Notes under the pieces: generated by a model
What the model was told of the DNA's origin: nothing
The model's database searches: none
Seen by the model: the letters and a program-made list of their open reading frames with translations, nothing else
Position numbers and translations under genes: made by a program
In this document: positions 3,413-4,089 of the stretch, piece after piece
How the letters are laid out: every line of letters begins with the position of its first letter
Position numbering within the stretch: the first letter of the stretch is position 1
NCBI GenBank assembly: GCA_015068845.1
Contig: SVJR01000003.1
Coordinates: forward strand, 1 to 64,000
Source of the DNA: Oscillospiraceae bacterium
GTDB lineage: Bacteria; Bacillota; Clostridia; Monoglobales; Monoglobaceae
Direction: 5' to 3'
Length of the DNA stretch: 64,000 nt

Positions 3413-3486
3413 TATTGAATGTGTACGGATAGTGGATTGTTTTTATTCTATTACTGCTTTATACTTAAATTGTGGAGGTTATGAAA

Positions 3487-4089
3487 ATGGATTTAAATAA
3501 AAACGGAAAACTCCTTTGCGATTTAAGAAAAGCCAAAGGAATGACTCAAAAAGAGGTTGCAGATATTCTTGGCGTTGTGCCGAAAACAGTTTCAAAATGG
3601 GAGACGGGACACGGATTCCCTGATGTATCAACAGTATCAGCTTTGGCTGATATTCTTGGAGTGAGCGAGAAAACCATTCTGTCAGGCGATCTCAAACAAA
3701 ATTTGGAGGAAGCGGGTAATATGAAAAGGACAAAATTCTATGTGTGTCCGTGTTGTGGGAGCTTTATGCAAGGAACAGGCAACAGTCAGGTTGTGTGTTG
3801 CGGAAAACAGCTTGAAGCTTTAAAGGCAGTTTCGGCAGATGATGAGCACACAATCAACATTTCTGAAATCGAGGACGATTATTATATTGAATTTAATCAC
3901 GAAATGACAAAGGAGCATTATATAAGCTTTGTGTCATATGTAAGGTTTGACAGGGTGCTTACGATAAAACTATATCCCGAACAGGACTCGGCTGTGCGTT
4001 TCCCGAAAATGTACGGCGGTAAAATTTGTTTTTATTGTAGCAAACATGGTTTATTTGAATATCAGATGAAATCACACCGAAAAGATTGA
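3487..4089 (+). CDS. XRE helix-turn-helix regulator fused to a desulfoferrodoxin/superoxide-reductase-like module
   Basis: Predicted 200-residue fusion. Residues 8-65 are a Cro/C1-type HTH (TQKEVADILGVVPKTVSKWE). Residues 83-110 match the desulforedoxin fold: C87xxC90 and the C104-C105 pair, next to the family stretch VVCCGKQLEAL. Residues 118-192 match a superoxide reductase iron centre: H121, H138 and H144 (HEMTKEHYISF, compare HPMEEEHYIEW), then C184xxH187 (CSKHGLF). Spacings 138-144, 144-184 and 184-187 equal those of desulfoferrodoxin (6, 40, 3). The residue before the first His is Glu, where active enzymes carry Lys, so a sensor role seems likelier than catalysis (inference). GGAGG at 3474-3478 favours ATG 3487 over in-frame 3472 and 3481. 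Last gene of the accessory block; a terminator follows at 4257. Confidence 0.8.
   Translation: MDLNKNGKLLCDLRKAKGMTQKEVADILGVVPKTVSKWETGHGFPDVSTVSALADILGVSEKTILSGDLKQNLEEAGNMKRTKFYVCPCCGSFMQGTGNSQVVCCGKQLEALKAVSADDEHTINISEIEDDYYIEFNHEMTKEHYISFVSYVRFDRVLTIKLYPEQDSAVRFPKMYGGKICFYCSKHGLFEYQMKSHRKD

Follow-up and report, generated by a model that had tools for sequence, protein, structure and literature searches.

HTH-Dx-SOR proteins: a desulfoferrodoxin-derived module in putative autoregulated transcription factors with a conserved candidate operator

The closest described relatives of the protein discussed here form the class HTH-Dx-SOR, which was defined with 19 proteins in SORGOdb (Lucchetti-Miganeh et al. 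2011; PMC3116461). In the description of the class given there, an N-terminal helix-turn-helix (HTH) is followed by a Dx-SOR module with the cysteine pattern CXXCX15CC, and the proteins are curated as superoxide reductases (SOR), with no operator, target or role assigned (PMC3116461). A full-text search of the open-access literature returned no functional work on the class.

Two further systems are relevant for comparison—the desulfoferrodoxins (TIGR00320; e.g., 1dfx and 2ji1) and the XRE/HTH_3 one-component regulators. With the former, the protein discussed here shares the (predicted) fold, the Cys4 Dx site and the four-His, one-Cys centre II; with the latter, HTH-Dx-SOR proteins have in common the HTH_3 domain and a putative dyad operator before their own promoter, whereas their effector domain is a SOR-derived metalloprotein module.

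In this report, we are discussing a member of this class encoded in a stretch of 64,000 nucleotides from an Oscillospiraceae bacterium (GCA_015068845.1, contig SVJR01000003.1, positions 1 to 64,000; "the window"). The gene product combines an XRE helix-turn-helix with a complete but divergent Dx-SOR module, and this fusion is real. It is not new, however; the protein belongs to the class named in 2011, so that the novelty implied by the original prediction, which had been made from the DNA letters, does not hold. What is new here is the conserved operator of HTH-Dx-SOR genes, as deduced from sequence comparison. A further difference from the SORGOdb class, curated as SOR, is that the catalytic Lys is nearly always absent.

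Domain architecture and spread of the family

The features of the locus are compiled in Table 1. The HTH_3 match reaches 50 bits, over the curated cut-off of 23 bits. For the C-terminal part, TIGR00320 (dfx_rbo) matches residues 81-192 (E 9e-10), at 38.8 bits being far from its equivalog cut-off of 146.9 bits, and PDB Dfx chains match with E-values from 7e-7 to 8e-6. The TIGR00320 and PDB matches are significant and support homology to desulfoferrodoxin; of the two Pfam families named in the original prediction, PF01880 remained sub-threshold (E 0.015; 16.3 vs 22.2 bits) and PF06397 was absent from the profile matches. The anticipated fold was also recovered in the predicted structure, which was built from 52 aligned family members (mean pLDDT 91): Dfx/SOR structures rank first in Foldseek (best E 1.8e-9), with E-values of about 1e-9 to 1e-8 and a target TM of 0.72-0.74 against 2ji2, 2ji1 and 1dfx. 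For the ligands coming together in space, this match and the aligned ligand positions provide indirect evidence.

Table 1. Features of the HTH-Dx-SOR locus; nucleotide positions refer to the window, residues to the protein encoded at 3487-4089.
Feature	Position	Strand	Remarks
Putative operator TGTACGGATAGTGGA	3422..3436	+	Imperfect dyad, centre 3429; family consensus TCTACGnnnCGTwGA
Putative -35 hexamer TTGTTT	3437..3442	+	Abuts operator
Putative -10 hexamer TATACT	3460..3465	+	17-nt spacer
Ribosome-binding site GGAGG	3474..3478	+	8 nt ahead of ATG 3487
HTH-Dx-SOR gene	3487..4089	+	200 aa, ATG at 3487
XRE/HTH_3 domain	residues 13-61		Profile match E 3e-13
Dx module	residues 83-109		C87 C90 C104 C105
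SOR-like centre II	residues 117-193		H121 H138 H144 C184 H187; E120 at Lys position

All nine metal ligands are located where they had been predicted. The Dx module is intact, with 13 residues separating CxxC from CC where SORGOdb writes 15, and the four His and one Cys of centre II are complete. The Glu previously assigned to the catalytic Lys position is confirmed, the protein reading D119-E120-H121 where the Glu-Lys-His motif, found as EKH in stand-alone Clostridia Dx-SORs, would be expected. The ligand spacings of the iron site had been overstated as equal to those of desulfoferrodoxin in three of four cases; given 17, 6, 40 and 3 in this protein versus 20, 6, 41-43 and 3 in the stand-alone Clostridia Dx-SORs (where the Cys-to-His value of 3 comes in part from the search motif), two of four agree. 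Thus, apart from the HTH fusion, this protein differs from desulfoferrodoxin in having Glu for Lys and a first spacing of 17 rather than 20, and the family as a whole in forming a separate tree branch and in the partial erosion of centre II.

HTH-Dx-SOR proteins are common in anaerobes. A survey of the co-occurrence of both parts, as suggested earlier, detected them in 77/392 Clostridia genomes (E 1e-25 threshold); Bacilli, Actinomycetota and Spirochaetota are represented among the best 80 loci from a species-level genome collection. No relatives were found among viral contigs. Family members are encoded at MT835563.1 21715-22296, a record from human faeces named Bacteriophage sp., and at NZ_OY725727.1 48189-48761 on a Monoglobus plasmid. 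One locus (L114/L288; G316:C15:65544-66122 and downstream) encodes HTH-Dx-SOR with a C-terminal LCM-type methyltransferase in a 485-aa open frame.

For the comparison of the family, 121 HTH-fused members were extracted, 87 of which are representatives at <75% identity. In a tree on the Dx-SOR columns, the HTH-fused members and two HTH-less relatives (L014 and L015) are split from all 18 stand-alone Dx-SORs by a branch with 100% SH-aLRT. Within the family, the four Dx cysteines are kept in 120-121 of the 121 members. The ligands of centre II are retained to different degrees (H138 in 121, H144 in 119, C184 in 119, H121 in 94 and H187 in 100 members), and the catalytic Lys is kept in only five. 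Among the 87 representatives, H121 is missing in 23 and H187 in 17. On the tree (trait columns excluded), H121 requires five changes and H187 14. Two members, L124 and L125, have H138 as the sole remaining centre II ligand and retain the HTH, the Dx cysteines and the operator; they could serve as natural test cases for the relative importance of the two metal sites.

Since the Lys has been lost almost everywhere and centre II ligands many times, efficient superoxide reduction is probably not the conserved task of the family. With M140, Y163 and G188 never varying and K142 and E165 hardly ever, the Dx-SOR domain is under selection, although not clearly for reductase chemistry. On the other hand, seven of the nine ligands are >97% conserved; centre II may therefore still react with superoxide.

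A candidate operator and its linked genes

When 106 non-redundant upstream regions were scanned for dyads, CTACGnnnCGTAG was revealed in seven of them, while shuffled sequences gave at most four for any 5-mer dyad. A motif model yielded ACTCTACGGAGCGTTGATT with a log-likelihood of 1010, whereas none of 20 shuffled sets exceeded 95. In 115/121 members (~95%), a site with a score of 11 or more is present within 1 kb upstream, in 110 of them within about 300 nt; at the same score, the background is 9/687 windows of 330 nt. The site is closely tied to the promoter, with TTG following it directly in 89/96 cases and the best -10 hexamer lying 17 nt further on in 77/96, versus 8% at control positions. 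The resulting pattern—operator, then TTG-17 nt-TATAAT—is held in its spacing across phyla. No operator was found before the two HTH-less relatives (best scores -0.4 and 0.3) or before 16 stand-alone SOR genes (best score 5.4). The regulatory role of HTH-Dx-SOR proteins, as read from these sequences, is strongly supported because this promoter-linked operator precedes ~95% of the genes and is absent from the two HTH-less relatives; this part of the original prediction stands.

Residue 32 of the HTH covaries with operator bases 3-5, TCT occurring in 51/57 cases with Asp and in 8/25 without (Fisher p 3e-7, a statistic that ignores relatedness). In APC-corrected mutual information, this covariation is not at the top, and the recognition helix is not singled out.

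In the window, transcription would start at about 3472, placing the operator centre at about -43. The dyad is imperfect, with 3/6 half-site positions being symmetric. In a pattern scan of the 79%-complete source assembly, this is the only site with three or fewer mismatches, hence no target besides the own gene is visible there. In a close relative (L021), the block of operator, promoter and gene is retained despite a different upstream gene. The window contains a second XRE gene (1985-2581, +), the C-terminal part of whose product carries CxxC pairs, and upstream of it a palindrome related to the operator, ACTCAACTAATCGTTTGGT (1880-1898; score 14.1); a similar operator type may therefore serve other XRE regulators. 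Further upstream, a UDPGT/EryCIII-like glycosyltransferase is encoded (32-1216, +), a close homologue of which overlaps the gene of an HTH-less Dx-SOR family member in a same-family genome (L287, 4152-5721).

Gene clustering around 80 named loci yielded no general partner; two of the neighbour clusters, CatA-like acetyltransferases in five loci and a small-protein gene in four, were later tied in by the operator. Exact sites lie directly before three CatA-like genes (L187/L213, L193/L235 and L209/L216), and in five more genomes a CatA-like gene is located downstream of HTH-Dx-SOR with a site within 1.5 kb (L215, L217, L218, L219 and L231). Examples of such neighbours come from Anaerotignum neopropionicum, Anaerobacterium chartisolvens and Acetobacterium dehalogenans. 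At the CAT-search loci of genomes devoid of HTH-Dx-SOR, none of 17 had a site scoring >12.5; the contrast of 8/30 vs 0/17 is modest (p = 0.04).

The small-protein gene is preceded by an exact site in L210 and by sites with one mismatch in L261 and L280. Its product has no Pfam family over cut-off and no PDB relative; one of its two forms gives a sub-threshold match to TIGR01453 (group I intron, GIY-YIG-type endonuclease; 25 vs 56 bits), and it looks GIY-YIG-like only by eye. Furthermore, an exact site is found before a DUF2087 gene (L189). In L272 (G147), a one-mismatch site precedes a flavodoxin/FMN-reductase-type gene with the HTH-Dx-SOR gene behind it. Some sites of the class scan sit within unrelated genes and look like chance. 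Since a reversed-pattern control hit six times in 75 genomes, compared with 29 sites, candidates seen in a single case (a Dabb protein, a CBAH-type hydrolase and an ABC permease region) are not claimed as targets.

Proposed mechanism and alternative readings

On balance, we consider HTH-Dx-SOR to be an autoregulated one-component transcription factor, probably an activator, which uses its SOR-derived module as a sensor and not as an enzyme, and assign this reading a probability of about 70%. DNA binding, activation, metal content and signal are what we infer from the comparisons described above. A protein dimer, suggested by the dyad nature of the site, would bind TCTACGnnnCGTwGA, the centre of which lies ~8 bp ahead of the -35 hexamer (near -43). 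It would control the sigma-A-type promoter of its own gene and, in other species, also a small number of further genes, either unlinked or operonic (CatA-like acetyltransferase, small protein, DUF2087-type). The C-terminal module would have changed from a Dx-SOR into a signal-receiving domain, with the Dx Cys4 metal centre as the likeliest redox- or metal-responsive element; the Dx centre is favoured over centre II since its cysteines are retained almost without exception.

Lambda CI at OR2 is an example of a class II activator site. Positive autoregulation is favoured over repression because the HTH-Dx-SOR site resembles such sites, lying upstream of the core promoter at a fixed spacing; we prefer activation with moderate confidence. 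Many XRE regulators are autorepressors, and it is possible, if rather unlikely, that the protein instead keeps its own promoter shut until oxidation or metal loss releases it from the DNA. The operator abuts the -35 hexamer, and an upstream site can serve repression, too; however, the dyad, at about -50 to -36, leaves the -35 and -10 elements free, and repression would not require a spacing held across phyla.

Less probable still is that the metal sites are structural only (e.g., Zn in Dx) and that a small molecule acts as the signal, perhaps one of aromatic or antibiotic-like nature which is modified by the CatA-like enzyme. This would be in line with operator-linked genes encoding modification and redox enzymes (CatA-like; an FMN-reductase-type flavoprotein in one operon), with the fusion of one member to an LCM-type methyltransferase, and with the site occurring on no SOR gene tested. 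Against it, C184, H138 and H144 are jointly ~98% conserved, which is more than a structural Dx Zn alone would account for.

It is unlikely that the protein is mainly an enzyme, i.e., a functional 2Fe superoxide reductase with an additional role in repressing or controlling its own gene: while the ligand set is complete, the rest of the 79%-complete assembly yielded no PF01880 gene, so that it could be the organism's only SOR-like protein, and active SORs without Lys or Glu have been reported for archaea, this is opposed by the rarity of the Lys in the family vs EKH in the stand-alone enzymes, the repeated losses of H121 and H187, the state of L124 and L125, and a separate SOR in 27 genomes with HTH-Dx-SOR (from two genome samples overlapping only in part).

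Returning to the activator reading, that HTH-Dx-SOR itself senses superoxide, oxygen or iron, as proposed originally, is conceivable by inference only. Its simplest form, a superoxide sensor built from an intact SOR, is argued against by the losses of the Lys and of the outer His ligands, the near-invariant Dx cysteines and targets other than SOR genes. These points leave room for a Dx-centred redox or metal sensor, or for a purely structural metal site. Tentatively, and at somewhat less than even odds, HTH-Dx-SOR proteins might be factors of multiple phyla in which the Dx iron-cysteine centre, not the reductase iron, reads redox state or metal supply, the protein activating its own gene along with CatA-like genes for detoxification via a cross-phyla operator.

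These proteins merit attention for their family-wide operator, for the erosion of their SOR site and for their CatA-like targets; a direct experimental handle on the class is offered by the operator with its promoter geometry and by the CatA-like target. Should the Dx centre be the sensor, an enzyme would have been co-opted as a redox switch in Bacillota, Actinomycetota and Spirochaetota alike.
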